From assembly GCF_022387135.1 (NCBI RefSeq), contig NZ_CP092462.1, forward strand, positions 4,092,001-4,156,000: 64,000 nt of DNA, written 5' to 3'. The position numbers and the translations under genes are program-made. Positions 1,254-47,997 of the stretch are shown piece by piece. Each line of letters starts with the position of its first letter. Position 1 is the stretch's first letter. The notes under the pieces were generated by a model. It searched no databases. It had not been told where the DNA came from and was given only the letters and a program-made list of their open reading frames with translations. This stretch comes from Comamonas sp. B21-038 (GTDB lineage: Bacteria; Pseudomonadota; Gammaproteobacteria; Burkholderiales; Burkholderiaceae_C).

Positions 1254-3989
1254 ATGGCACACACGGATATCACGCCCCCGCAGGCCAGCCTGCCTCTGTC
1301 TGAGCATTCGCGCTTCATCCAGCGCCTGCACCGCCGCTACGAGGGTTTGCTGGATCTGCTGCCCAGTGGTGCCCCCAGCCATGCAACGATGGCCCCCACC
1401 TTGGCGGCGCTGCAGGCCCAGGGGTATGCGCTGGGCGCTGCGCTGCGCATTCTTCGGCAGCTGGTCATGGAGCGGCTGGTGCATCTTGACTGCGACGCGC
1501 AGGCTGATCTGCAGACCATCACGCAAGGGGTGACCGAGCTGGCCGAGCTGGCACTGGACGCCGCCTGCACCGCAGCACGCGCAGAGCTTGACGGCCGCCA
1601 TGGCGCACCGCGCGACGCCGAGGGCAACCCGGTGCAACTGTGGGTGATCGGCATGGGCAAACTGGGCGCGCGCGAGCTCAATGTGTCCAGCGACATCGAC
1701 CTGATCTATATCTATGAGCAAGAAGGCGAGACCCAGGGCCAGCCCGATGGCCGGGGCAAGATCAGCAACCATGAGTACTTCATCCGTGCGGTCAAGCTGA
1801 TCTACCAGCTGATTGGAGAGACCACCGAACACGGGTTCGTGTTCCGCGTCGATCTGATGCTGCGGCCCAATGGCAACTCGGGCCCGGCCGCCATCTCGGT
1901 GGCAGCGCTGGAGGACTACCTGCAGACCCATGGCCGCGAATGGGAGCGCTTTGCCTGGCTCAAGAGCCGCATCGTGGCACCGCTGGCCGATATCCGCACC
2001 CCCAATGTGCAGGCGCTGCGCGGCGCGGTGCTGCCCTTTGTGTTTCGTCGCTACCTGGATTACGCCGTGTTCGACTCGCTACGCAGCCTGCACCGCCAGA
2101 TCCGCGAGCATGCGGCCAAGCGCAGCGCGGGCCATCCCGAGCGCGCCAACGACGTCAAGCTCTCGCGTGGCGGCATCCGCGAGATCGAATTCATCGTGCA
2201 ACTGCTGCAGGTGGTGCGGGGCGGCCAGTTCCCCGAGCTGCGCTGCCGTGCCACCCTGGAGGCATTGCAGCGGCTCGAGCGCGCCAGCCTGATGGCACCC
2301 GAGACAGCGCAGGCGCTGGCCGATGCCTATGTTTTCCTGCGCAAGGTGGAGCACCGCATCCAGTACCTGGACGACCAGCAGACCCATGTGCTGCCGACCC
2401 GCGATGACGACCTGCGGTGGATGGCGCAGACCCTGGGCTATGACGACGAGTGCCGCTTTCTGCACCAGCTCGATGCCCACCGCGAGCTGGTCGCCCAGGA
2501 GTTTGACAAGCTGCTGGGCGGCAACGAGGCCTGCAAGAGCGGCCAGTGCGGCGGCGCCAAGGGCGCAGCGGCCAGCGCCCCGGAGCTGGAAACGGTGCTG
2601 CCCAGGCTGCCCGAGGCGGTGCGCGATCGCGTGCTGCAGTGGCAGCGCAACCCCCGCTACAGCTACTTGAGCGATGCCGGCCGAGGCCGCCTGGTCTTGC
2701 TGCTGCAGCGCACCGCCCAGTGGTTGGGCCAGGGCCAGGTGAGCGAGATCGCCGCAGTGCGGCTGGCCGACTGGATGGAATCACTGCTGCGCCGCGAAAG
2801 CTATCTGGCGATGCTGCAGGAACGCCCGGCCGTGCACGAGAAGCTGATGCACATGCTGGGCGCCGCCAAATGGCCTGCCCGCTACATGCTGCAGCATCCC
2901 GGCGTGATCGACGAGCTGGCCAGCGATGCGCTGATGCATGAGCGCTTCAATCCGCAGGAGTTCGAAGCGGATCTGGAGCGGCGCCGCGCCGCGCTGCAAT
3001 CGACTGCCGAAGATGACGACGAAAACCTGCTGAACCTGCTGCGCCGCGCCCACCATGCCGAGACCTTCCGCACCCTGGCGCGCGACATCGAGCAGCAGAT
3101 CACCGTCGAGCAGGTGGCCGATGACCTCTCGGCACTGGCTGACGCCGTGCTGCGCGTGACGACCCGCTGGTGCTGGGGCCGGCTCAAGAGCGCCCACCGC
3201 GAAGAGCCGCAGTTCGGCATCATCGGCTACGGCAAGCTTGGCGGCAAAGAGCTGGGCTACGGCAGCGATCTGGACATCGTGTTTGTGTTCGATGACGATG
3301 ACGAACGCGCACCCGAGGTCTACTCGGCTTTCGTGCGCAAGCTGATCAGCTGGCTCACCGTCAAGACCGGCGAGGGCGATCTGTTCGAGATCGACACCGC
3401 GCTGCGCCCCAACGGCAACTCCGGCTTGCTGGTCACCAGCTTTGAGTCCTACGCCAACTACCAGCAGCAGCGCGGCAGCAACACCGCCTGGACCTGGGAG
3501 CACCAGGCGATGACCCGCGCCCGCTTTGTGATGGGCAGTGCAGAGCTGGCAGCGCGCTTTGACGCGGTGCGCGAGGCAGTGATCACCGCGCCCCGGGATG
3601 CGGTGGCGCTGGGCAGTGAAATCGCGACGATGCGTGAGCGCGTGCGCAGCGCCCACAAGGTGCCGGCGGGCCTGTTCGATGTCAAGCACAGTGTCGGCGG
3701 CATGATGGATGTGGAATTTGTCGTGCAGTACCTGGTTTTGCTGCATTCCGCTTGCAATCCCCAATTGCGGCCCAACTTGGGGAACATCAGTCTGCTGCGC
3801 CGCGCCGAAAACGCAGGCCTGCTGCCTGCCGGTATGGGCGAGGCGGCGGCCAATGCCTACCGCGCACTGCGGCGTGTGCAGCATCTGGCCCGCTTGAACG
3901 AGGCGCCCACCCAGGTGCCGGAGACTGCCTTGCTGGAGGAACAACAGACGGTAAGAACGCTGTGGAAGGCGGTGTTGCAGAGCACATAA
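1254..3989 (+). CDS. glnE: Bifunctional glutamine synthetase adenylyltransferase/deadenylylase
   Basis: The 911-residue protein has the duplicated nucleotidyltransferase architecture of GlnE, close to the usual 930-950 residues. The N-terminal (deadenylylating) half carries GMGKLGARELN followed by SSDIDLIYIYE with metal-binding D147 and D149. The C-terminal (adenylylating) half carries GYGKLGGKELGYGSDLDIVF with D672 and D674. It adds or removes AMP on glutamine synthetase in response to PII protein, tuning nitrogen assimilation in the cytoplasm. It starts at an ATG 121 bp from the divergent yhdP start. Downstream lies a long untranslated stretch with strong inverted repeats. Confidence 0.97.
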   Translation: MAHTDITPPQASLPLSEHSRFIQRLHRRYEGLLDLLPSGAPSHATMAPTLAALQAQGYALGAALRILRQLVMERLVHLDCDAQADLQTITQGVTELAELALDAACTAARAELDGRHGAPRDAEGNPVQLWVIGMGKLGARELNVSSDIDLIYIYEQEGETQGQPDGRGKISNHEYFIRAVKLIYQLIGETTEHGFVFRVDLMLRPNGNSGPAAISVAALEDYLQTHGREWERFAWLKSRIVAPLADIRTPNVQALRGAVLPFVFRRYLDYAVFDSLRSLHRQIREHAAKRSAGHPERANDVKLSRGGIREIEFIVQLLQVVRGGQFPELRCRATLEALQRLERASLMAPETAQALADAYVFLRKVEHRIQYLDDQQTHVLPTRDDDLRWMAQTLGYDDECRFLHQLDAHRELVAQEFDKLLGGNEACKSGQCGGAKGAAASAPELETVLPRLPEAVRDRVLQWQRNPRYSYLSDAGRGRLVLLLQRTAQWLGQGQVSEIAAVRLADWMESLLRRESYLAMLQERPAVHEKLMHMLGAAKWPARYMLQHPGVIDELASDALMHERFNPQEFEADLERRRAALQSTAEDDDENLLNLLRRAHHAETFRTLARDIEQQITVEQVADDLSALADAVLRVTTRWCWGRLKSAHREEPQFGIIGYGKLGGKELGYGSDLDIVFVFDDDDERAPEVYSAFVRKLISWLTVKTGEGDLFEIDTALRPNGNSGLLVTSFESYANYQQQRGSNTAWTWEHQAMTRARFVMGSAELAARFDAVREAVITAPRDAVALGSEIATMRERVRSAHKVPAGLFDVKHSVGGMMDVEFVVQYLVLLHSACNPQLRPNLGNISLLRRAENAGLLPAGMGEAAANAYRALRRVQHLARLNEAPTQVPETALLEEQQTVRTLWKAVLQST

Positions 3990-4035
3990 ACCCTGTAGAA
4001 AGGCTGATGGAACTCGGGTTTTCATAAGGGTTTAT
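3986..4035 (+). other. Inverted repeat at the glnE stop codon
   Basis: ATAAACCCT (3986-3994) is exactly complementary to AGGGTTTAT (4027-4035), giving a 9-bp stem with a 32-nt loop that contains the glnE stop codon. No T-run follows, so it is not a standard intrinsic terminator. It may protect the 3' end of the glnE message; that role is inferred. Confidence 0.4.
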
Positions 4036-4191
4036 ACTGTGACGCTGCCATTCGCTAGCATTCACTTACGTGCAAGCGCCACCAAAACAATGCACTATCA
4101 GACCTCAGGCAGCGATTAATTCGACAAATGATAACAGAAAGAAACAAATTATTTATTTGTTTACAATACATTTAGCATCAGCGCTGGAAAC

Positions 4192-11870: not shown

Positions 11871-12344
11871 ATGACTGAACTCACCCATTTCGACGCCCAG
11901 GGCCAGGCCCATATGGTCGACGTCGGCGCCAAGCCTAACACCCACCGCATTGCAATCGCGGAGGGCTTCATCACCATGCAGCCGGCCACCTTGGACATCA
12001 TTGCTGCGGGCACTGCCAAAAAAGGGGACGTGCTGGGCATTGCCCGCATCGCCGGAATCATGGCGGCGAAGAAGACCAGTGAGCTGATACCGCTGTGCCA
12101 CCCGATTGCGTTGACCAAGGTGGCGGTGGAGTTTGAGGTGCTGCCGGAGAAAAATGCTGTGCGATGCGAAGCGCGGACAGAGACGGTAGGGCAGACGGGG
12201 GTGGAGATGGAGGCGCTGGCTGCAGTGCAGATTGCGTTATTAACTATATATGATATGTGCAAGGCGGTGGAAAGGGAGATGGTAATAAATGGCACACGCT
12301 TACTTGAAAAGCACGGGGCAGAAATATCAATCTTAATCGATTAG
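11871..12344 (+). CDS. moaC: Cyclic pyranopterin monophosphate synthase
   Basis: The 157-residue protein has the MoaC core: [38 protein letters not shown], and the C-terminal [14 protein letters not shown]. MoaC converts the MoaA product to cyclic pyranopterin monophosphate, the first stable molybdopterin intermediate. Start ATG at 11871 gives the usual length. From about 12230 the codon use turns abruptly AT-rich (ATT-GCG-TTA-TTA-ACT-ATA-TAT), unlike the first 350 bp. This marks the edge of the low-GC pilin region, so the 3' end of moaC may have been exchanged by recombination. Confidence 0.96.
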
Positions 12345-12708
12345 GCAAATTTACTCCCAAGTAAAGCTGCTTGTATTTTATAAATCGCAAGGTGACAATT
12401 TAGGGGCGCAGTTGACTGAATATGCGGATAAGGTTTATTAGACTTATACAAACCCCAATTCCATTTTACTTAATTACCCCCAACTTACACCGCGACAGAC
12501 TGAGAAAACACCGACGCACATTGGCAGATGCCGCATCAGAACAGAATCATTTATTTATGACCGCACTAGCACAATTTTTAAAAATCTTAAAAATATATAT
12601 CAAATCCATATAGCATTTAGCAAAGTATTAATATTCGCAATACTCAGAATCCCTGCAATAAATTTGCGAACTTCATTGTTTCGAGCGTACACTCAAATCT
12701 AAATATCA
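12345..12708. other. AT-rich intergenic stretch
   Basis: This 364-bp region between the convergent moaC and tfpZ-like genes is visibly AT-rich compared with the rest of the window. A short frame at 12422 lacks a ribosome binding site and family features. I see no terminator hairpin, tRNA or repeat. It is best read as spacer belonging to the foreign-looking pilin cassette. Confidence 0.6.
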
Positions 12709-13488
12709 TTACTCCCACCCGCTTATCGGTGCATATCCTACAATATATGCCTGCCCATCCAATAGCACAATCCAGCCATCCAGTGATTTCTGACTGACCA
12801 GCGGCAAATAAGAGAGCTTATTGATCGTCAAATTTGTTTTCTGAACAGCATCGTCTATCATTGAGCGATGTAATGGGGACAAGCGTTGGTAAAGTTGGAT
12901 CAGCGGCTGCATATTCACTTGAGCAAACGCCCGGTTTGGCTCATAAGGCCACCACCAGTCTGGCCGAGTACTAGGTTCATGGCCTTGCAAGGAAAGTGAC
13001 AGGTTCTGACTCACCTCTTTATTACTACGAGGCGATCGAATACTGAGCAACCATGGCCCCCCCCACCATGGCATGCATTGATAAGCCTTGTCCGCTTGCA
13101 TCAAGGACTTCGATTCAATCTCCGCCGCAGTTACCATCACAAAACGATCCACCTCATATACAACTGCCACCGGACGCGCTAGACTAATACTATATAGACC
13201 ATAAAACAGTGCGCTTAACTGCACAGCGCCTACAAGGGATAGATCCCAGATCAGCTCACGTCTGGATTTAGTGGTCTTGAACAGGACCAGTGTTAGGAGA
13301 GGCCCACACACCAGATCTACCCCTATCACAACCAAAAAAAGAAAGGTTCCTCCGGCAAGTTCGCGAAAGGGAAATGGAAACCATGCCTTAAACACCAATA
13401 TTGCTGCCAGCGCTGCAATGCCCGCGCTTACTAACAAGTGAATGCCACAAGCCTTAATCACCTTAACATACTTGATCGTAAAACTCAT
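12709..13488 (-). CDS. tfpZ: TfpX/TfpZ-type pilin accessory protein
   Basis: The 259-residue protein has three N-terminal membrane segments (about residues 12-34, 44-68, 80-102), with the conserved GVDLVCGPLLTLVLFK loop, and a C-terminal periplasmic domain with several tryptophans. This matches the TfpX/TfpZ family, whose genes sit beside the major pilin in particular Pseudomonas and Acinetobacter pilin groups and which is needed for assembly or surface levels of its cognate pilin. It is the last gene of the pilin cassette, 18 bp after the methyltransferase-like gene. AT-rich codon use differs from the chromosome. Confidence 0.85.
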   Translation of the reverse strand: MSFTIKYVKVIKACGIHLLVSAGIAALAAILVFKAWFPFPFRELAGGTFLFLVVIGVDLVCGPLLTLVLFKTTKSRRELIWDLSLVGAVQLSALFYGLYSISLARPVAVVYEVDRFVMVTAAEIESKSLMQADKAYQCMPWWGGPWLLSIRSPRSNKEVSQNLSLSLQGHEPSTRPDWWWPYEPNRAFAQVNMQPLIQLYQRLSPLHRSMIDDAVQKTNLTINKLSYLPLVSQKSLDGWIVLLDGQAYIVGYAPISGWE

Positions 13489-13506
13489 AAAATTAATTGG
13501 TTTCTC

Positions 13507-14151
13507 TTAAAAGATCCCAGGCACCAACCGCCAGCGCACTTTTCTAGCGTAGATTATATAGCCAGGGTCTTTCCTTAAAATTTTCTCCTCTTCAAAAATG
13601 CGAATGAATTGGCACATCCAGTTGAAACACAACACTAGCAAATTGAAAAAACTGAAGAATGACAGAATGAATCCGATATGTGCCACCAAGTAACTAGCAT
13701 AAATAGGATGCCGCACAAAGCGGTAAGCTCCCCTTTGCTGAATACCTCGATTGGCTGGAGCCAGGCCAAAACTGAAGCCCAGCGAAGCCTTAGAAAAAAT
13801 CTGCATCACTATTCCCAGGCACTGGAGCGAGACGCCATAAGACAAAGGGATCAATGAGACATGTGGATATTGAAAAAAATCAAAAAAAATATAATAAAAG
13901 CTACCACCGATTGTAGAAAAAATTGCCAGAATTGACAAATTAACCTTCTTCGTATCTCTAGAAAAAATAACCAACCCTACCGTAAACAATTCAGCAATCA
14001 GGAGGAGAAAATAATTTATTTTTTTTGTTTGGCTGTACACCTCAAAAGCCTGCAAACAGAAATTGAATAACAAAGCCACAACAATAATCCGCACACCAAA
14101 CCGCAGGATTTTGTAACGAGCCCACAGATTATTAATAAATTCAGCAAGCAT
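13507..14151 (-). CDS. ICMT-like membrane methyltransferase in the pilin cassette
   Basis: The 214-residue protein has several membrane segments and the C-terminal signature of the isoprenylcysteine carboxyl methyltransferase/phospholipid methyltransferase superfamily: RGAYRFVRHPIYASYL at about residues 141-156, then an acidic FEEEKILRKDPGY. This motif binds S-adenosylmethionine at the membrane surface. The substrate is unknown; placement directly in a pilin cassette suggests the pilin or its lipid environment, which is inference. Its start overlaps the end of the upstream gene by 11 bp, so the two are probably translationally coupled. AT-rich. Confidence 0.75.
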   Translation of the reverse strand: MLAEFINNLWARYKILRFGVRIIVVALLFNFCLQAFEVYSQTKKINYFLLLIAELFTVGLVIFSRDTKKVNLSILAIFSTIGGSFYYIFFDFFQYPHVSLIPLSYGVSLQCLGIVMQIFSKASLGFSFGLAPANRGIQQRGAYRFVRHPIYASYLVAHIGFILSFFSFFNLLVLCFNWMCQFIRIFEEEKILRKDPGYIIYARKVRWRLVPGIF

Positions 14152-15202
14152 TTAAACTCTCCCAGATATATTTATTCTCCTTACGCCATATTACATTATC
14201 AATGAAGTAGTGATGGATATTTATGAACAACCAAAATGCGGCTGTAAAAAGCATCCCCACCTGCGACATTAAGTTAACCTTCCCCGAATTTATATAATCC
14301 AACACACCTGGAATTAACCAAAATAAAACAAATCCCCATCCAATCAAATACAACCAACGGCGAGTTTTTTCTTGTTTAGATTGTTTTTTTTCTTTATTGT
14401 CGTAAAATTTTTCTACCACATGCATGTATTGCATAGAGTGAAAAAATGGAATCACAAGCATTAACAACGGAAAAGAGACACCAATCGCGACCCAAACATA
14501 CAAAGACACCAGATATCCCATTAACCCTGCACTCGGCCAATCCTTTTGATGTTTGCCTATTTGACGCCAGTAACCAATATTCCTCCGAATACCAATTATT
14601 ACACCAACACTAGTAATACCAAAAAAAATTGCAGCGGGCAATAACCATTGCTGCAAGGAGCTTCTCTCCAATGGGAAATACCAGCCTAAAAAACCAACCC
14701 CGCCTTCAGCAGAAAACAACAAGCACATACTAAATATCCAGCACGCATAGGCATTCCATAGCATCCAGCGCCGTACTTTCGGCTGCCAATAGCATCTTTT
14801 CAGAGCCGCCTCCGACATTGCCATGCCAAAACCCTGTTTAACATAGTGCCACCCCACACTGATCCCGTAGAGAAAAATGACTAAGGTAAGCACGAAATCA
14901 TCGCCATGAAAATACTTTACAATACCAATAACTAATAATATCGACAACCCTAGTGGAACTATGATAGCAGCGACCCACCAACGGATTTGTAACGTTTTTT
15001 GAAACTCACTTGTTTTAATTTTTGGATACATTTCAAAAAAAAGTTTATAAGAGGCCATAAAATGAGGATGATTCATGAAATTCGAAAAAATCATCATCAA
15101 AACACCAAAAGGCGCGATCCAAGCCTCATTTAATCCTATAAAAACTGCGATCAATACCAAGAGTGAGTAGCCACCCATTGCCGCCTTGGAGTAACCTCTC
15201 AT
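14141..15202 (-). CDS. Histidine-rich polytopic membrane protein of unknown function
   Basis: The 353-residue protein has about eight to nine hydrophobic segments. Histidines cluster in short motifs at membrane edges: NHPHFMASY (about residues 44-52), GWHYVKQGFG (about 117-126), HSMQYMHVVEKFY (about 256-268) and NIHHYFIDNVIWR (about 329-341). Such spacing is reminiscent of membrane metalloenzymes, but I do not recognise a characterised family. A strong AAGGAGGGG ribosome site precedes the ATG. It lies between pilA and the ICMT-like gene, separated from pilA by a terminator-like hairpin. AT-rich codon use. Confidence 0.75.
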   Translation of the reverse strand: MRGYSKAAMGGYSLLVLIAVFIGLNEAWIAPFGVLMMIFSNFMNHPHFMASYKLFFEMYPKIKTSEFQKTLQIRWWVAAIIVPLGLSILLVIGIVKYFHGDDFVLTLVIFLYGISVGWHYVKQGFGMAMSEAALKRCYWQPKVRRWMLWNAYACWIFSMCLLFSAEGGVGFLGWYFPLERSSLQQWLLPAAIFFGITSVGVIIGIRRNIGYWRQIGKHQKDWPSAGLMGYLVSLYVWVAIGVSFPLLMLVIPFFHSMQYMHVVEKFYDNKEKKQSKQEKTRRWLYLIGWGFVLFWLIPGVLDYINSGKVNLMSQVGMLFTAAFWLFINIHHYFIDNVIWRKENKYIWESLNAC

Positions 15203-15220
15203 CTCCCCTCCTTATAATAA

Positions 15221-15250
15221 TTAAAAAAAAGAGGCCGAAGCCTCTTTTAA
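15221..15250 (-). terminator. UUCG-loop terminator between pilA and the accessory genes
   Basis: Read leftward, AAAAGAGGC, TTCG and GCCTC followed by eight Ts form an intrinsic terminator 18 bp after the pilA stop. It should keep most transcription to pilA and let only read-through reach the three accessory genes. Confidence 0.88.
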
Positions 15251-15268
15251 TAGATATATCTTTATTTA

Positions 15269-15748
15269 TTAAGGGTTAGGAGCCGCCGCTGCTGCACGGC
15301 AGGCTTGTGGACGGAATTTTTGATTTACAGTACCGCCTGTGCAGTCCCACAATTGACCACCATTCGTTGTTGCAAAAGTGATAGTTTGGCCCGATGCGCG
15401 GGAATTAGAGCCCATCGTCCCAGTTATAGTGCCATTCGGATAGGTGCCGGCAACAGTGCCGCCTAACGATGAATATTTACCGGTCAAATTCACTGCGATC
15501 GATCCAGCAGCAACTGATTGGTTATTTGTTCCATCAGATTGGACCAGGCCTGGCCATGCATTTTCATTAGCACCGTATTCAGACAACGGAGCCTTCAGCC
15601 CGCCCAGCAGTTCTGTTGGTTCCGCCACCTGGGCGCGGGTGACGTAATCGTTATAAGCAGGCAAAGCCACAGCAGCCAAAATACCGATAATCGCCACAAC
15701 GATCATCAGTTCGATCAGGGTGAAACCCTTTTGCATCTTACGCAACAT
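15269..15748 (-). CDS. pilA: Type IV major pilin
   Basis: The 159-residue protein has the class III signal [20 protein letters not shown] with cleavage after G8 and E at position 5 of the mature chain, as required for PilD processing and subunit assembly. The hydrophobic helix runs to about residue 30. Near the C-terminus, WDCTGG...FRPQAC gives the disulfide loop, followed by an unusual alanine-rich tail RAAAAAPNP. It is Gly/Thr/Asn-rich, like surface-exposed variable pilins. GAGAGGATT precedes the ATG. A perfect sigma-54 site lies upstream, so PilS/PilR-type control is expected. Confidence 0.95.
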
Positions 15749-15815
15749 GTTGAATCCTCTCTATGTAACCAGTGATTAGGTAGCCTTGTCGAACGACTTG
15801 GCGTGCTTCACTTAC

Positions 15816-15831
15816 TGCAAGTGCTGTGCCA
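15816..15831 (-). promoter_or_regulatory. Sigma-54 promoter of pilA
   Basis: Read on the minus strand the sequence is TGGCAC-AGCAC-TTGCA, a perfect match to the RpoN consensus TGGCAC-N5-TTGCW. The GC of the -12 box places the transcript start near 15805, giving a leader of about 57 nt before pilA. Pilin genes controlled by PilR use this promoter class. Confidence 0.9.
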
Positions 15832-15984
15832 ACTTCTAGCGCCCATACATCTCGCGGCGTTGACTGACAAAAATGCGGCGTTTTGTTAACTTATTGTGCA
15901 AGACGTTCATAAATGTCAGCAAGCCAAGATGTCTGCCATTTTTGTCACCTTCTGAACGCCTGTGCAAGCTATGCGCATGGGCGG

Positions 15985-16014
15985 CAGAAACAGAAACGGC
16001 ACCCGAAAGTGCCG
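15985..16014 (-). terminator. Terminator of the FHA gene
   Basis: Read leftward, CGGCAC-TTTCGG-GTGCCG is followed by TTTCTGTTTCTG. It lies about 47 bp after the FHA stop codon. Confidence 0.7.
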
Positions 16015-27468: not shown

Positions 27469-28271
27469 CAGTGCTTGCCAATCAGGATGCGGTCCAGACC
27501 ATAGACCTTGTCGAGCAGGAGCATCAACCCCAGGGTGATGAACACGATCAGCGCCGATACCGCTGCCATCATCGGGTCCAGCGACTCGGTGGCATACATG
27601 TACATGCGCACCGGCAAGGTCACCGTGCTGGGCGAGACCACAAAGATCGACATGGTCAGCTCATCAAAGCTGTTGATGAAGGCCAGCAGCCAGCCGCCGG
27701 TGATACCGGGCAGGATCATCGGCAAGGTGATGCGCTTGAACACCGTGGCATTGCTGGCGCCCAGCGAGTAGGCGGCCTGCTCGGCGCTGCGGTCAAAGCC
27801 GATCAGCGCGGCCATCACCAAGCGCATGGTGTAGGGCATCACCACCAGCGCATGCGCAAAGATCAGCCAGCCAAAGCTGCCCTGGCCGCCCACGAGCGAG
27901 AACATGCGCAGCATGGCAACACCCAGCACCAGGTGGGGAATGATCAGCGGCGACAGGAACAGCGCCTGCAGCGCGCCACGGCCGGGGATCTCATAGCGCA
28001 CCAGCGCAATGGCGGCGGGCACAGCCAGCGCGGTGGAGATGGACGCGGCGGCGACGGCCAGGCCCAGGCTGTTCCAGAACGACTGGACAAAGTCGGCATG
28101 GTGCAGCACCTGCTCGAACCAGCGCAGCGAGAAGCTGGTGGTCGGCAGGGTCAAGGTTTCAGCCGGGGTGAAGGCCACCAGGCAGACGACGACCAGCGGC
28201 GCCAGCATGAAAATGATGACCAGCGCGTTGAAGATGAGGGCAATGGGTCCGTTTTTTTGCATGTCAGTCAC
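27468..28271 (-). CDS. ABC transporter permease, PotC-like
   Basis: The 267-residue protein has six membrane segments and the EAA-type loop of binding-protein-dependent permeases, EQAAYSLGASNATVFKRITLP, at about residues 163-183. It closely follows the second permease gene (8 bp) and together they form the membrane channel for the PotD-like binding protein. Confidence 0.92.
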   Translation of the reverse strand: MTDMQKNGPIALIFNALVIIFMLAPLVVVCLVAFTPAETLTLPTTSFSLRWFEQVLHHADFVQSFWNSLGLAVAAASISTALAVPAAIALVRYEIPGRGALQALFLSPLIIPHLVLGVAMLRMFSLVGGQGSFGWLIFAHALVVMPYTMRLVMAALIGFDRSAEQAAYSLGASNATVFKRITLPMILPGITGGWLLAFINSFDELTMSIFVVSPSTVTLPVRMYMYATESLDPMMAAVSALIVFITLGLMLLLDKVYGLDRILIGKH

Positions 28272-43342: not shown

Positions 43343-44194
43343 TCAGGCCGCGCCGGCCTTGGGCCGCACGCTGACTTCCGAGCTGGTCACATCCACCACA
43401 CCCGCAGCGGTCTGCACGCGCAACGCGCCATCGGCGCCTACACCCATGGCCAGGCCGGCCGTACCGTCACTCAGGCCGACCTCGCGGCAAGCCAGCGCAT
43501 CGCGCTCCGCATAGGCCGCCTGCAGCGGCGCAAAGCCCTGCTGCGCAAAAGCCAGGATCGCAGCGACCAGCGGCGGCACCACGGCCTGCAGCGCCTGCGG
43601 CGCGTCCCAGCGGCTGTCGAGCATCTGCAGGCTGCCCGGGATGGTCGACAGGCCTTCGGCCTGCGGCGCCCGCACATTGATGCCGATGCCAATCACTACA
43701 TAGCGCTCGGCCTGCTGCTGGCCATCGCCCGCATGCGTGCGGGCCGAAACAAAGCTCGCGGTCTCGACCAGGATGCCGGCCAGCTTGTGGTCGCCGGTCA
43801 GCCACAGGTCGTTGGGCCACTTGAGGCCGATGGTAGGCGTGCTGGAGCCGGGCTCGGGCAGCTGCGGCTGCAGGCTTTGCGCCACCGACACGCCAACAGC
43901 CAGCGACAGGCCCGACCAGTCGGCCGGCGCCAGCGGCAGGCCCAGCGACATCAGCAGCGAATCACCGGCCTCGCTGCGCCAGGGCTTGCCCATGCGGCCA
44001 CGGCCTGCGGTCTGCTGCTCGGCCACCAGCAAGATGGGCTCCTGGCGGCCCGCACGGGCGCGGCGCATCAGCTCGGTGTTGGTCGAGTCGATACTGGGCA
44101 GCACCTCGATCGTGAAGCCCGGCAACTGCGGCTCGACCGCTTCCCAGATGGCTTCGGCCGGCCAGCGGATGGGCATGTTCGGTGTGTCGCTCAT
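43343..44194 (-). CDS. birA: Biotin-[acetyl-CoA-carboxylase] ligase
   Basis: The 283-residue protein has the biotin/ATP loop AEQQTAGRGRMGKPW (about 59-73), LKWPNDLWL, KLAGILVE and GIGINV. It attaches biotin to the carboxyl carrier protein of acetyl-CoA carboxylase. There is no N-terminal helix-turn-helix, so it is the monofunctional type without repressor activity. Its start overlaps the SET-domain gene stop by 4 bp (ATGA), suggesting co-translation. Confidence 0.93.
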   Translation of the reverse strand: MSDTPNMPIRWPAEAIWEAVEPQLPGFTIEVLPSIDSTNTELMRRARAGRQEPILLVAEQQTAGRGRMGKPWRSEAGDSLLMSLGLPLAPADWSGLSLAVGVSVAQSLQPQLPEPGSSTPTIGLKWPNDLWLTGDHKLAGILVETASFVSARTHAGDGQQQAERYVVIGIGINVRAPQAEGLSTIPGSLQMLDSRWDAPQALQAVVPPLVAAILAFAQQGFAPLQAAYAERDALACREVGLSDGTAGLAMGVGADGALRVQTAAGVVDVTSSEVSVRPKAGAA

Positions 44195-44898
44195 GCGCCC
44201 GCCTTGGCCGTCTTCTGGCCCTTGGTCTTGTTGCCGGTCTTGGCTTTCTGGCCGCTCTTTTTCTTGTCCTTGGCTTTGCTCAGTGCCTTGTCTGCTGCCT
44301 TGGCCTTGGGCTTTTCCGCTTTGGCAGGCTTGGCGGGCTTTGCGCCATCGGCGGCCGCCTTGGCCTTGCGCTTTTTGGGCAGCACCGGCTCGGGCAAATC
44401 CGATGCAGGCACCTTGGGCTTCCAGCCGCGCTTGGGCGCCAGCATTGTGCCCCGGCATTCGGCCGCGCCGCAGTGACAGGCGTAGTCGGCCTTGAGCTGG
44501 GCGGTGTAGCGCTCTTCGATGATCAGGCCATAGTCATAACCCAGTTCCTCGCCGGCGTTGATATTGCGCAGCGCGCTGATGAAGATGCGGTCATCCACTT
44601 CTTCGGCAAAGCAGTTGGGGGCGCAGCTGTGGTTGATCCAGCGGGCCGAGTTGCCGCCATCACCGCCGTCGATGACGCGGTCGCCATCGATCTGGAAAAA
44701 GAAGGTGTGGTTGGGGTGGTCCGGGTCGTGCGGGTGGCGGCGCTGGCTTTCTTCGTAGCTGATGACCTTGCCCGCATATTCGACAATGACTTCGCCTTCT
44801 GCGATATCCTGCAACGCAAAAACGCCCCTGCCGTGCACGCCCGAACGCCGTACCTGGATACGACGACCTGTTGAAAAATGGGGAACATGGTTCGGCAT
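44191..44898 (-). CDS. SET-domain protein-lysine methyltransferase with histone-H1-like tail
   Basis: The 235-residue protein has a complete SET domain: SGVHGRGVFA (about 19-28), the AdoMet/knot motif RWINHSCAPNC at 86-96, GEELGYDYG at 116-124, and a post-SET CHCG...C cluster at 141-148. Residues 174-235 form a tail almost entirely of lysine, alanine, proline and glycine, like histone H1. SET proteins methylate lysines, mainly of chromatin proteins in eukaryotes; chlamydial and archaeal members act on DNA-binding proteins. It is divergent from topB, whose product carries a similar tail, a possible substrate by inference. Confidence 0.9.
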   Translation of the reverse strand: MPNHVPHFSTGRRIQVRRSGVHGRGVFALQDIAEGEVIVEYAGKVISYEESQRRHPHDPDHPNHTFFFQIDGDRVIDGGDGGNSARWINHSCAPNCFAEEVDDRIFISALRNINAGEELGYDYGLIIEERYTAQLKADYACHCGAAECRGTMLAPKRGWKPKVPASDLPEPVLPKKRKAKAAADGAKPAKPAKAEKPKAKAADKALSKAKDKKKSGQKAKTGNKTKGQKTAKAGA

Positions 44899-44926
44899 GG
44901 GATTTTTTCTGCTACTTTAAAAATAA

Positions 44927-44959
44927 GCACATGCGCATGTGCGCACACGTACACATGCA
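44927..44959. promoter_or_regulatory. Alternating purine-pyrimidine tract, Z-DNA-prone
   Basis: All 33 bases from 44927 to 44959 strictly alternate purine and pyrimidine, made of CA/TG and CG steps, and include the 16-bp perfect palindrome GCACATGCGCATGTGC (44927-44942). A second alternating stretch follows at 44966-44980. Such sequence flips to Z-DNA under negative supercoiling. It occupies the 162-bp region between the divergent SET and topB genes. Confidence 0.65.
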
Positions 44960-45060
44960 GGCGCCCGCGCACATGCGCGTAAAGCGTGCATTGTAAGAGC
45001 GTGCTCAGAGAGCCAGCAACCCACAGTGCTGGCAGACCCCAGTTTGATGAGAGTGAACCC

Positions 45061-47997
45061 ATGTCCAAGACCCTGGTCATTGCAGAAAAGCCGTCCGTTG
45101 CACAGGACATCGTCCGTGCACTGACGCCGGTGGCAGGCCAATTTGCCAAACACGACGACTACTTTGAAGCCGAGAACTTCATCGTGACGAGCGCGGTGGG
45201 TCACCTTGTGGAGATCCAGGCCCCCGAAGAATTCGATGTCAAACGCGGCAAATGGAGCTTTGCCCATCTGCCGGTCATCCCGCCCTACTTTGAACTCAAG
45301 CCGGTCGACAAGACCAAGACGCGCCTGAATGCCGTCGTCAAGCTGGCCAAGCGCAAGGATGTCACGGCGCTGATCAACGCCTGTGACGCGGGCCGCGAAG
45401 GTGAACTGATCTTCCGCCTGATCGAGCAATATGCCGGCGGTGCCAAGGGTGGCCTGGGCAAGCCGATCCAGCGCCTGTGGTTGCAGTCGATGACGCCGCA
45501 AGCCATCCGCGACGGCTTCAACAAGCTGCGTTCGGACAACCAGATGCTGGGCCTGGCCGATGCCGCCCGCAGCCGCTCCGAAGCAGACTGGCTCGTCGGC
45601 ATCAACGGCACGCGGGCGATGACCGCGTTCAACTCGCGCGATGGTGGTTTCTTCCTGACTACCGTGGGCCGCGTGCAGACGCCCACGTTGTCGCTGGTGG
45701 TCGAGCGCGAGGAAAAGATCCGCAAGTTCGTCAGCCGCAACTACTGGGAAATCCACGCCGAGTTCAACGCCCAGGCGGGCGCCTACCCGGCCAAGTGGTT
45801 CAACCCGGGCTGGAAGAAGAGCGACGACGCCGAGGCCAAGGCCGACCGCGTCTGGACCCAGCAAGAGGCCCAAGCCATTGCAGATGCCGTGCGCCGCAAG
45901 CCCGCCACGGTGACCGAAGAGTCCAAGCCCACCACCCAGGCATCGCCGCTGCTGTTTGACCTGACCAGCTTGCAGCGTGAGGCCAACAGCAAGTTCGGCT
46001 TCTCGGCCAAGACCACGTTGGCACTGGCCCAGGCGCTGTACGAACGCCACAAGGCGCTGACCTACCCGCGTACCGATTCGCGCGCGCTGCCCGAAGACTA
46101 CCTGCCGGTCGCCCGCCAGACCTTCGAGATGCTGGCCCACAGCAGCATGCAGCAGCTCGCGCCGTTTGCGCAGCAGGCCATTGGCGCCAACTACATCCGC
46201 GCGAACAAGCGCATCTTCGACAACAGCAAGGTGTCGGACCACTTTGCCATCATCCCGACCACGCAGGCGCCCGGCGCGCTGAGCGAGGCCGAGCACAAGC
46301 TCTACACCTTGGTGGTGCGCCGCTTCATGGCGGTGTTCTTCCCCAGCGCCGAGTACCAGGTCACCACCCGTATTAGTCAAGTCGATGAGCACCACTTCAA
46401 GACCGAAGGCAAGGTGCTGGTCAAGCCCGGCTGGCTGGCCATCTACGGCAAGGAAGCGGCCCACGAAGTGGAAGACGCCAAGGAAGGCGACAAGGGCCAG
46501 AACCTGGTGCCGGTGCAGCCTGGCGAGAAGCCGGTGGCCGACCCGGTCGACCCCAAGGGCCTCAAGACCAAGCCGCCCGCCCGCTACTCGGAAGCGACCC
46601 TGCTGGGCGCGATGGAGAGCGCCGGCAAGCAGATCGACGACGACGAACTGCGCGAAGCCATGCAGGAAAAAGGCCTGGGCACGCCTGCGACGCGCGCAGC
46701 CATCATTGAAGGCCTGCTGACCGAGAAATACATGCTGCGCGAAGGCCGCGAGTTGATCCCCACGGCCAAGGCCTTCCAGCTGATGACCTTGCTGCGCGGT
46801 CTGCAGGTGGAAGAGCTCTCGCGCGCCGACCTGACTGGCGAGTGGGAGTACAAGCTCGCACAGATGGAAAAGGGCCAGCTCTCGCGCGAAGCCTTCATGG
46901 CCGAGATCCAGTCGATGACCGAACGCCTGGTGAAGAAGGCCAAGGAATACGACCGCGACACCATTCCGGGCGACTACGCCACCTTGTCCGCGCCCTGCCC
47001 GAACTGCGGCGGCGTCGTCAAGGAAAACTACCGCCGCTATGCCTGCACCGGCGTGGGCGGCAATGGCGAGGGCTGCGGCTTCTCGTTCACCAAATCGCCT
47101 GCGGGCCGCACCTTCGAGACCGCCGAGGCCGACCAGCTGCTGCGCGACCGCAAGCTGGGCCCGCTCGACGGCTTCCGCTCCAAGGCCGGCTGGCCGTTTG
47201 CTGCCGAAGTGGCCATCGTGCGCGACGAGGACAACAACAACTTCAAGTTCGAGTTCCTGTTCGAAGACAACAAGTCCGATGAGGAATCGGGCGAGCTGGT
47301 GGACTTTGGCAGCCAGAACACTCTGGGCGCCTGCCCCAAATGCGGCGCTCCGGTGTTCGAGCACGGCGCCAACTATGTCTGCAGCAAAGCCGTGCCCACG
47401 GCCCAGCAGCCCACACCCAGTTGCGACTTCAAGAGCGGCCAGATCATCCTGCAGCAGCCCATCGAGCGCGACCAGATGGCCAAGCTGCTGGCGACCGGCA
47501 AGACCGACCTGCTCGACAAGTTCGTCTCCAACCGCACGCGCCGCAGCTTCAAGGCCTTCCTGGCCTGGGACAAGGAGGCCGGCAAGGTGAACTTCGAGTT
47601 CGAGCCGCGCGACAGCAAGTTCCCGCCGCGCAAGGGCGCGGCCGCCAAGACGGCGGCCAAGACTGCCACGAAGACCGCAAGCAAGACCGCTGCCAAGGCC
47701 ACGAAGACGGCGGCCAAAACCGCTACCAAGTCGGCCACCAAGACCGCCGCCAAAACGCCCCGCAAGGTCGCCGCGACGCTGACCCCCAGCCCCGCACTGG
47801 CAGCGGTGATCGGCAGCGAGGCCACCTCGCGCCCCGAGGTCATCAAAAAGCTGTGGGACTACATCAAGGCCCACGGTCTGCAGGATGCCAAGGACAAGCG
47901 CGCGATCAACGCCGACGCCAAGCTGCAGCCGCTGTTTGGCAAGGACCAGATCAGCATGTTCGAGATCGCCGGCATTGTTGGCAAGCATGTGAGCTGA
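45061..47997 (+). CDS. topB: DNA topoisomerase III with H1-like linker and C-terminal SWIB domain
   Basis: The 978-residue protein starts with the TOPRIM domain (LVIAEKPSVAQDI; CDAGREGELIFR) and has active-site Y335 in LTYPRTDSRALP. Two C-terminal zinc-type cysteine clusters follow (CPNCGG...GCGF; CPKCGAP...CDF). Residues about 857-902 are a lysine/alanine/threonine repeat like histone H1 (KTAAKTATKTASKTAAKATK). The last about 70 residues (907-978; LWDYIKAHGLQDAKDKRAIN, PLFGKDQISMFEI) are a SWIB/MDM2 domain, otherwise known from eukaryotic chromatin remodelers and chlamydial topoisomerase I. It relaxes or decatenates single-stranded DNA joints. E. coli TopB is about 650 residues and lacks tail and SWIB. 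Confidence 0.95.
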   Translation: MSKTLVIAEKPSVAQDIVRALTPVAGQFAKHDDYFEAENFIVTSAVGHLVEIQAPEEFDVKRGKWSFAHLPVIPPYFELKPVDKTKTRLNAVVKLAKRKDVTALINACDAGREGELIFRLIEQYAGGAKGGLGKPIQRLWLQSMTPQAIRDGFNKLRSDNQMLGLADAARSRSEADWLVGINGTRAMTAFNSRDGGFFLTTVGRVQTPTLSLVVEREEKIRKFVSRNYWEIHAEFNAQAGAYPAKWFNPGWKKSDDAEAKADRVWTQQEAQAIADAVRRKPATVTEESKPTTQASPLLFDLTSLQREANSKFGFSAKTTLALAQALYERHKALTYPRTDSRALPEDYLPVARQTFEMLAHSSMQQLAPFAQQAIGANYIRANKRIFDNSKVSDHFAIIPTTQAPGALSEAEHKLYTLVVRRFMAVFFPSAEYQVTTRISQVDEHHFKTEGKVLVKPGWLAIYGKEAAHEVEDAKEGDKGQNLVPVQPGEKPVADPVDPKGLKTKPPARYSEATLLGAMESAGKQIDDDELREAMQEKGLGTPATRAAIIEGLLTEKYMLREGRELIPTAKAFQLMTLLRGLQVEELSRADLTGEWEYKLAQMEKGQLSREAFMAEIQSMTERLVKKAKEYDRDTIPGDYATLSAPCPNCGGVVKENYRRYACTGVGGNGEGCGFSFTKSPAGRTFETAEADQLLRDRKLGPLDGFRSKAGWPFAAEVAIVRDEDNNNFKFEFLFEDNKSDEESGELVDFGSQNTLGACPKCGAPVFEHGANYVCSKAVPTAQQPTPSCDFKSGQIILQQPIERDQMAKLLATGKTDLLDKFVSNRTRRSFKAFLAWDKEAGKVNFEFEPRDSKFPPRKGAAAKTAAKTATKTASKTAAKATKTAAKTATKSATKTAAKTPRKVAATLTPSPALAAVIGSEATSRPEVIKKLWDYIKAHGLQDAKDKRAINADAKLQPLFGKDQISMFEIAGIVGKHVS

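Follow-up and report, generated by a model that had tools for sequence, protein, structure and literature searches.

Why would a bacterium keep the gene for a SET-domain methyltransferase back to back with the gene for a topoisomerase III that ends in a SWIB domain? The question is raised by a locus of Comamonas sp. B21-038 (NZ_CP092462.1, positions 4,092,001-4,156,000), which we analyzed as a window of 64,000 nucleotides, numbered here from its own first letter. The explanation that we favor, with a probability of roughly 0.45, is that birA and SET on one side and topB on the other constitute a conserved block of two divergent transcription units, which would share a promoter region with a Z-DNA-prone tract at its core; SET would be a methylase of nucleoid and DNA-topology proteins, and the tract would respond to supercoiling. 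The features concerned are listed below in window coordinates, B-Z denoting the transition from B-DNA to Z-DNA.

43343..44194, minus strand: gene for a birA-like biotin ligase (Pfam BPL_LplA_LipB, 45.4 bits)
44191..44898, minus strand: SET-domain protein of 235 residues, KMT2/MLL1-like with post-SET cysteines (Pfam PF00856, KMT2A alignment)
44194..44439, minus strand: Lys/Ala/Pro-rich C-terminal extension of SET, 82 residues (composition, family tail count)
44927..44959, no strand: uninterrupted alternating purine-pyrimidine tract of 33 bp, Z-DNA-prone, between SET and topB (run count and B-Z calculation)
44966..44981, no strand: second alternating run, 16 bp, beside the tract (run count)
44990..44995, plus strand: ATTGTA box on the topB side, a putative promoter element (family comparison)
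45061..47997, plus strand: DNA topoisomerase III (TopB) with a C-terminal SWIB domain, 978 residues (Pfam and NCBIfam)
47419..47604, plus strand: the better-scoring of two Toprim_Crpt repeats of TopB, residues 787-848 (Pfam)
47617..47778, plus strand: Lys/Ala/Thr linker of TopB, residues 853-906 (family comparison)
47779..47991, plus strand: SWIB domain of TopB, residues 907-977 (PF02201, 92.3 bits)

The birA-SET-topB block and its proteins

The two divergent proteins that an earlier note had described from this DNA, each with a lysine-rich stretch, are real. SET matches PF00856 over residues 23-124 with 89.3 bits against a cut-off of 22.4, and its closest solved chain, among the best 60 of 130 matches, is KMT2A (7u5v_A, E=4e-27). 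The alignment of the two retains HGxG, NHSC..PNC, YDY, and the post-SET C.CG...CR. We take HGxG, NHSCxPNC, and YDY, together with the post-SET cysteines, to be the motifs of a KMT2-like SET methyltransferase. The 82 residues that lie past the post-SET cysteines contain 25 lysines, 19 alanines, and 9 prolines, and the last ~60 of them are the Lys/Ala/Pro tail of the earlier note. As for TopB, Pfam recognizes a Topoisom_bac domain, two Toprim_Crpt stretches, and the SWIB domain, while the NCBIfam equivalog NF011313 (PRK14724, "DNA topoisomerase III") matches the whole protein, residues 1-978, with 1996.5 bits against a cut-off of 1088. The TopB-SWIB fusion is an already curated family, of which the window protein is a full-length member without any difference. 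It resembles the TopA-SWIB of Chlamydia trachomatis, another type IA topoisomerase, in which a seemingly unstructured stretch precedes a C-terminal SWIB (PMC12445093; this and the other papers cited were available in part). The chlamydial fusion, however, involves topoisomerase I and that of the window topoisomerase III, which would make this a second group with a fusion between SWIB and a type IA topoisomerase.

Conservation was assessed in 150 genomes of the window's Genome Taxonomy Database (GTDB) family, spanning 141 genera. SWIB was found in 148 and the TopB N terminus in 146 of these genomes. The gene neighborhoods compared number 141, that is, 140 topB neighborhoods and the window locus; among the 145 other topB-positive genomes, G045, G083, G089, G093, and G131 lie outside this set. 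SWIB is fused to TopB at 71 of the 141 loci. The fusion is therefore not peculiar to the window genome, and the published description of SWIB as rare in prokaryotes outside Chlamydia (PMC12445093, 2025) fails for the window's family. The window genome itself has two SWIB matches. Its stand-alone SWIB protein (L003 1495-1803, 102 residues) has a short start containing lysine, alanine, and proline and by eye looks similar to the end of TopB that linker and SWIB form together, which might have derived from it.

SET is present in 141 of the 150 genomes, which fits a housekeeping gene, with a single match by profile search in the window genome. It is present and divergent from topB at 134 of the 141 loci, the topB start being 162 bp from SET in the window and the gap measuring 70-250 bp at 107 of the 134 (one gap, at L143, reaches 7.9 kb; in relatives, start codons and hence intergenic gaps are estimates). 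Of the seven loci that lack SET, L116, L154, L173, L181, and L212 belong to genomes without any SET match, L155 lies at a contig end, and L237 has its SET elsewhere in the genome. SET and birA also adjoin topB in G045 (locus L249), one of the genomes outside the set. On the other side, the stop codon of SET overlaps the start of birA by 4 bp (ATGA, 44191-44194), which places SET at the head of a SET-birA pair, and the arrangement suggests that the two genes are probably transcribed together. birA accompanies the block at 136 of 140 loci, lies on the strand of SET in all 133 measured, and is within 30 bp of it in 85 (with estimated starts); at all four SET-less loci that show birA, it sits directly beside topB. 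The next gene downstream of topB in the window was found at none of the 140 other family loci. Judged by gene order, the birA-SET-topB block is an inherited unit.

The lysine-rich stretches of the two proteins, which the earlier note had paired, fare differently in the relatives: the Lys/Ala tail of TopB is near-universal, while that of SET is patchy. The linker is present in all 71 SWIB-TopBs, 68 of which have at least 15 residues with at least 15% lysine. The same test is passed by 46 of 67 TopBs without SWIB, many of the others having shorter ends of the KAPAKKAAAKK type (L137, L160, and L184 were dropped from the 141 as fragments). A K-rich SET tail, set at 15 residues or more with at least 20% lysine, occurs in only 17 of 134 family SETs, and 16 of these 17 belong to loci where TopB carries SWIB. 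In 80 of the 134 the protein ends no more than 10 residues past the post-SET motif; in 36 of the 80 this end is four residues long, for example APKR. Within the genus of the window, the SET of L242 carries such a tail (13 lysines in 60 residues) and that of L098 does not. When SETs of at least 80 bits were counted across groups for K-rich extensions of at least 20 residues at either end, some genomes being counted twice, the extension was found in 23 of 137 in the family, 10 of 39 at order or class loci, 5 of 30 in family f32, 0 of 48 Polynucleobacter-like SETs, and 15 of 32 at other named loci. Its state changes 15 times on a quick tree of 90 SETs (146 columns, with 29 of 86 inner branches left open and L212 absent for want of a SET). 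We consequently rejected the tail as a defining feature of SET, since K-rich tails come and go at both ends of the protein. The tail of TopB keeps its lysines at the SET-less loci L116, L154, L173, and L181 and is also kept in L254 and L255, which come from genomes without a SET match; L212, where the tail has arginines only, is the sole SET-less locus without lysine there. The TopB tail is thus independent of SET.

By analogy, the linker of TopB is most likely a DNA-holding element. Actinobacterial TopA, also a type IA topoisomerase, carries H1-like lysine repeats that have been linked to its processivity, and the review that describes them speculates that modification of the repeats tunes it (PMC7398561). 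The TopB linker would act as a comparable DNA-clamping processivity element, with SWIB as an added protein-interaction domain. The actinobacterial repeats differ in being on TopA rather than TopB, and the available part of that review mentions no SET neighbor.

The alternating tract upstream of topB

Purine-pyrimidine alternation in the SET-topB regions is beyond chance. In 133 family regions (the 134 minus L143), the longest alternating run has a median of 24 bp and reaches at least 18 bp in 100, a length found in 0.6% of dinucleotide shuffles of the same regions. Counted over the 141 loci, with the 750 bp before topB taken as intergenic where SET is missing, there are 110 such runs in 33.0 kb of intergenic DNA vs. 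1 in 925 kb elsewhere. The tract is about equally frequent with SWIB-TopB (49 of 68) and without SWIB (51 of 65). Its letters vary: 67 of the 69 tracts of at least 24 bp are distinct in sequence, with the alternation and GC, CG, GT, and TG steps kept and TA and AT steps few, and pairs of long tracts have a median best ungapped identity of 0.75. Transitions make up 61% vs. 34% in the comparison of tracts, a difference that is partly built in; because both sequences were chosen as alternating, we leave this test out of the main argument. An ATT[GC]TA box lies within 60 bp of the tract at 120 of the 133 loci, with a median offset of 10 bp.

In 12 topB upstream regions from the order level, no run is longer than 11 bp. 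When the upstream sides of 152 further SETs were compared, runs of at least 18 bp were found only in the topB-linked L242, L249, L415, L431, and L433 and in L340. Since the tract is missing at most other SETs and also occurs at topB loci that lack SET (see below), it seems, from this distribution, to be part of the topB promoter region in the window's family. Calculated B-Z energies (Table 1 of PMC3024258, without Z-Z junctions) place the best site of the 64-kb window in a 22-bp part of the tract, with a critical superhelical density (sigma) of -0.0415 for an assumed domain of 5 kb. The family median is -0.0388 vs. -0.0485 for shuffles, but short CG runs elsewhere in the window come close in energy (see below). 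Terminator-like matches occur inside the tract, two of them on the minus strand, and by eye the relatives are mostly without the T run. A sigma-70 promoter scan gave no match. The sole alternating run of at least 16 bp in the window outside the SET-topB region is 20 bp long (27592-27611).

SET genes in other lineages

In some other lineages, SET genes are found beside gyrB and HU genes, a hint, though no proof, that methylation of a bacterium's chromosome proteins may be carried out by its own enzymes. In genus g146 (L239-L241), SET lies between gyrB and topB, following the former and tail to tail with the latter; in L238 of the same genus the contig begins beside SET and only topB is in view. 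A scan with one Polynucleobacter-type SET as query yielded 80 named loci, the best 80 matches, for which reason the shares among them are no survey: SET follows gyrB in 48 (L355-L401 and L403, from Polynucleobacter or betaproteobacterial metagenome-assembled genomes (MAGs), with dnaN in view in 43), is divergent from an HU gene 0.2-1.3 kb away in 27 (Ralstonia, Cupriavidus, and other Burkholderiaceae), and is topB-birA linked in three (L415, L431 (Roseateles MAG), and L433 (Aquabacterium terrae)), while the two Paraburkholderia loci have neither a gyrB or HU nor a topB-birA context. Among 30 loci of family f32, SET follows gyrB in four (L325, L330, L343, and L352, of which L330 and L352 are from the genomes of L250 and L251) and has HU beside it in seven, divergently in six. 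The HU (PF00216) and GyrB identities hold up in Pfam for those examples that were scanned. In family f63 (L316 and L317), an HU-domain protein is encoded 1.4-2.5 kb from SET, the copy in L316 having a K/A-rich start. The SETs of Polynucleobacter, Ralstonia, and Cupriavidus have no topB in flanks of up to 6 kb.

At the class level, SET matches occur in 77 of 274 genomes and are mostly weak, with seven places above 80 bits and the remainder below 70; contexts were inspected in 27 short loci and nine longer stretches. Neighbors at the other SET loci were chosen from stop-to-stop open reading frames by a rule on G+C at third codon positions (GC3), which can miss genes. At L302 (3070-4206), SET is next to a BATS/radical-SAM gene, a biotin-synthase-like and thus second biotin-type neighbor, and at L315 (3757-5726), a SET with a K-rich tail lies between the genes for thymidylate synthase and dihydrofolate reductase. 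On the tree of 90 SETs, starred branches force at least two changes for the topB context, at least two for HU, and at least one for gyrB. The number of neighbors expected by chance is 0.08 (0.22 with 25 target genes instead of 9) against about 4-6 seen, if one assumes 20 lineages, 9 target genes in 4,500, and independence, figures that are optimistic for reasons given below.

The idea that a SET acts on HU is already in print: in Ralstonia solanacearum, SET (RS_RS16825) and the HU gene DbhB (RS_RS16830) form a divergent pair, and SET was proposed to act on the histone-like protein (PMC5390034, 2017). The window SET is likewise divergent from a nucleoid/topology gene, although its partner is topB and not HU. 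The promoter regions differ as well. The shared promoter of the Ralstonia pair has conserved GTWWAC sites, and at least two such sites are found within 700 bp upstream of SET at 33 of 34 HU-linked loci (e.g., L404 and L410), so that, on the sequences compared, the pattern of DNA-methylation sites published for Ralstonia solanacearum (PMC5390034) extends to Cupriavidus. Any GTWWAC, in contrast, occurs in only 10 of 133 SET-topB regions, and it was therefore rejected as a promoter feature common to them. Conversely, no alternating run of at least 18 bp was found upstream of 35 HU-linked SETs, unlike in the SET-topB regions. A literature search that covered few subscription papers returned, among the matches listed, no paper on the SET-topB pair or on the alternating tract.

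What SET and the tract may do

The SETs linked to gyrB and HU fit a nucleoid/topology methylase better than they fit an effector or an enzyme of the TopB tail alone. Judged by its motifs and recurring neighbors, SET most likely works inside the cell as an active methyltransferase of protein lysines, directed at the cell's own nucleoid and DNA-topology proteins, with HU as the first candidate substrate and topoisomerases as possible ones. For the chlamydial cpnSET, action on a chromosomal protein of the same cell has been reported (review PMC3980110), and the window SET would be its counterpart. Unlike Chlamydia with its Hc1/Hc2, however, the window genome has no Hc1/Hc2-type H1-like protein over the Pfam cut-off (PF07382, PF07432), only sub-threshold matches, and other K-rich proteins may exist. 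The tract, in turn, is most likely, to judge by its composition and position, a supercoiling-responsive element for topB. It would make the expression of topB, and that of SET where the region is shared, respond to negative supercoiling. When this is high, the tract would flip from B to Z, absorb twist, and alter promoter activity, a topological feedback whose direction we infer. What the earlier note had proposed, a bacterial chromatin-modification pair made up of SET and TopB, is thus partly supported in the broader form of a nucleoid/topology methylase, by virtue of the gyrB- and HU-linked SETs, and is weakened as a pair by synteny and by the patchy SET tail.

Several observations weigh against this explanation. 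birA equals SET in its conservation within the block, so the SET-topB linkage may be plain synteny. Biotin genes also recur beside SET, namely birA in the window's family and the BATS/radical-SAM gene in L302. Both gyrB and HU were added to the class "nucleoid/topology" only once the data were known, and the gyrB and topB contexts may descend from one gyrB-SET-topB arrangement, leaving as few as two or three events, which is why the chance expectations given above are optimistic. Fifteen further SET loci, drawn from 13 families with f8 and f32 represented twice, were sampled for two neighbors each, and none of the 30 proteins is a topoisomerase, HU, or IHF; at one of these loci, L243 (family f4), an Lrp/AsnC regulator (3688-4167) lies directly beside SET, but it is a nucleoid protein only on a loose definition. 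With respect to the tract, runs of at least 18 bp are also found in 2.5% of equally long segments drawn at random from the family loci (overlap with the tract being possible), short CG/GC runs elsewhere in the GC-rich window reach -0.043 to -0.045, and 62% of shuffles reach -0.05. A tract is moreover present upstream of topB without a linked intact SET (19 bp in L154, 23 in L155, 17 in L173, 29 in L209, and 21 in L212; none was found at L116, L181, and L237, where a linked intact SET is also lacking), so it need not concern SET.

These points bear on the other explanations for SET. The linkage that the earlier note had relied upon does hold at most loci, but birA is as conserved as SET and stands beside topB when SET is absent, so synteny of the block suffices to explain it, and we rejected the linkage by itself as functional proof. 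SET and topB could then be unrelated neighbors, SET being expressed with birA, as its strand, its spacing, and the ATGA overlap would suit, and methylating some unrelated substrate. Against this, topB, gyrB, or HU recurs beside SET in separate clades, and no family locus keeps the window's gene beyond topB, which means that the block is not within a long fixed region there; we consider mere synteny possible but on the doubtful side. In the model of the earlier note, the targets of SET are lysines in its own tail and in the Lys/Ala tail of TopB, whose methylation would tune DNA topology. The conserved divergent pair and the near-universal TopB tail speak for it, and there are precedents in the automethylation of NUE and the methylation of Hc1 by cpnSET (review PMC3980110) and in the heavy lysine methylation of the Lys-rich tails of mycobacterial HBHA and HU/MDP1 (PMC8467707, PMC11033290), the methyltransferase of MDP1 being not identified according to the MDP1 paper among these two. 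The model nevertheless appears unlikely, given how few family SETs have a tail, the TopB tails kept without SET, and the Polynucleobacter, Ralstonia, and Cupriavidus SETs without a nearby topB; because tails persist without SET, the TopB tail was downgraded as the sole substrate. BurB, a bacterial SET-domain enzyme, S-methylates free methionine (PMC12542666), and SET might similarly act on a small molecule, but the solved structures that match it best belong to KMT2, NSD, and other histone-lysine methylases (among the best 60 of 130, BurB being outside this comparison), and we hold this to be very unlikely. Finally, SET might be secreted and target eukaryotic histones as a nucleomodulin, a role that has been claimed for NUE, RomA/LegAS4, and BtSET. 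Other bacterial SETs methylate histones according to the review (PMC3980110), and the NCBIfam LegAS4 model does match SET weakly, yet its 43.3 bits are far below the cut-off of 550, and SET is near-ubiquitous in the family and coupled to birA, which makes a host effector highly improbable.

As for the tract, it is quite possible that it serves as a protein-binding site for a regulator of topB and not as a Z-DNA element, a function that is compatible with the data. The box at a nearly constant distance and the shared identity of the long tracts would suit such a site, whereas the almost universal change of letters under preserved alternation, with few TA/AT steps, argues against it. A bolder version of the favored explanation, which we regard as rather unlikely, is an order-wide, chromatin-style writer: a KMT2-like SET that would methylate HU, gyrase, and topoisomerase III and whose gene would have come to lie next to those of its substrates more than once. 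In the window's family, a Z-DNA switch between topB and SET would sense negative supercoiling, adjust the amounts of relaxing enzyme and writer alike, and thus close the feedback loop.

Should the SET family indeed mark HU or topoisomerases, free-living bacterial species would have an equivalent of histone methylation, and one may then ask whether some bacterial SETs regarded as host effectors had started out in a housekeeping role. Whatever SET does, a conserved tract in the promoter region of a topoisomerase would be a cheap test case for Z-DNA as a natural bacterial supercoiling sensor. Elsewhere in the window, the stretch 12001-16000 has a G+C content of 0.43-0.45, whereas the remainder lies at roughly 0.60-0.68, a drop of the kind that acquired islands show.

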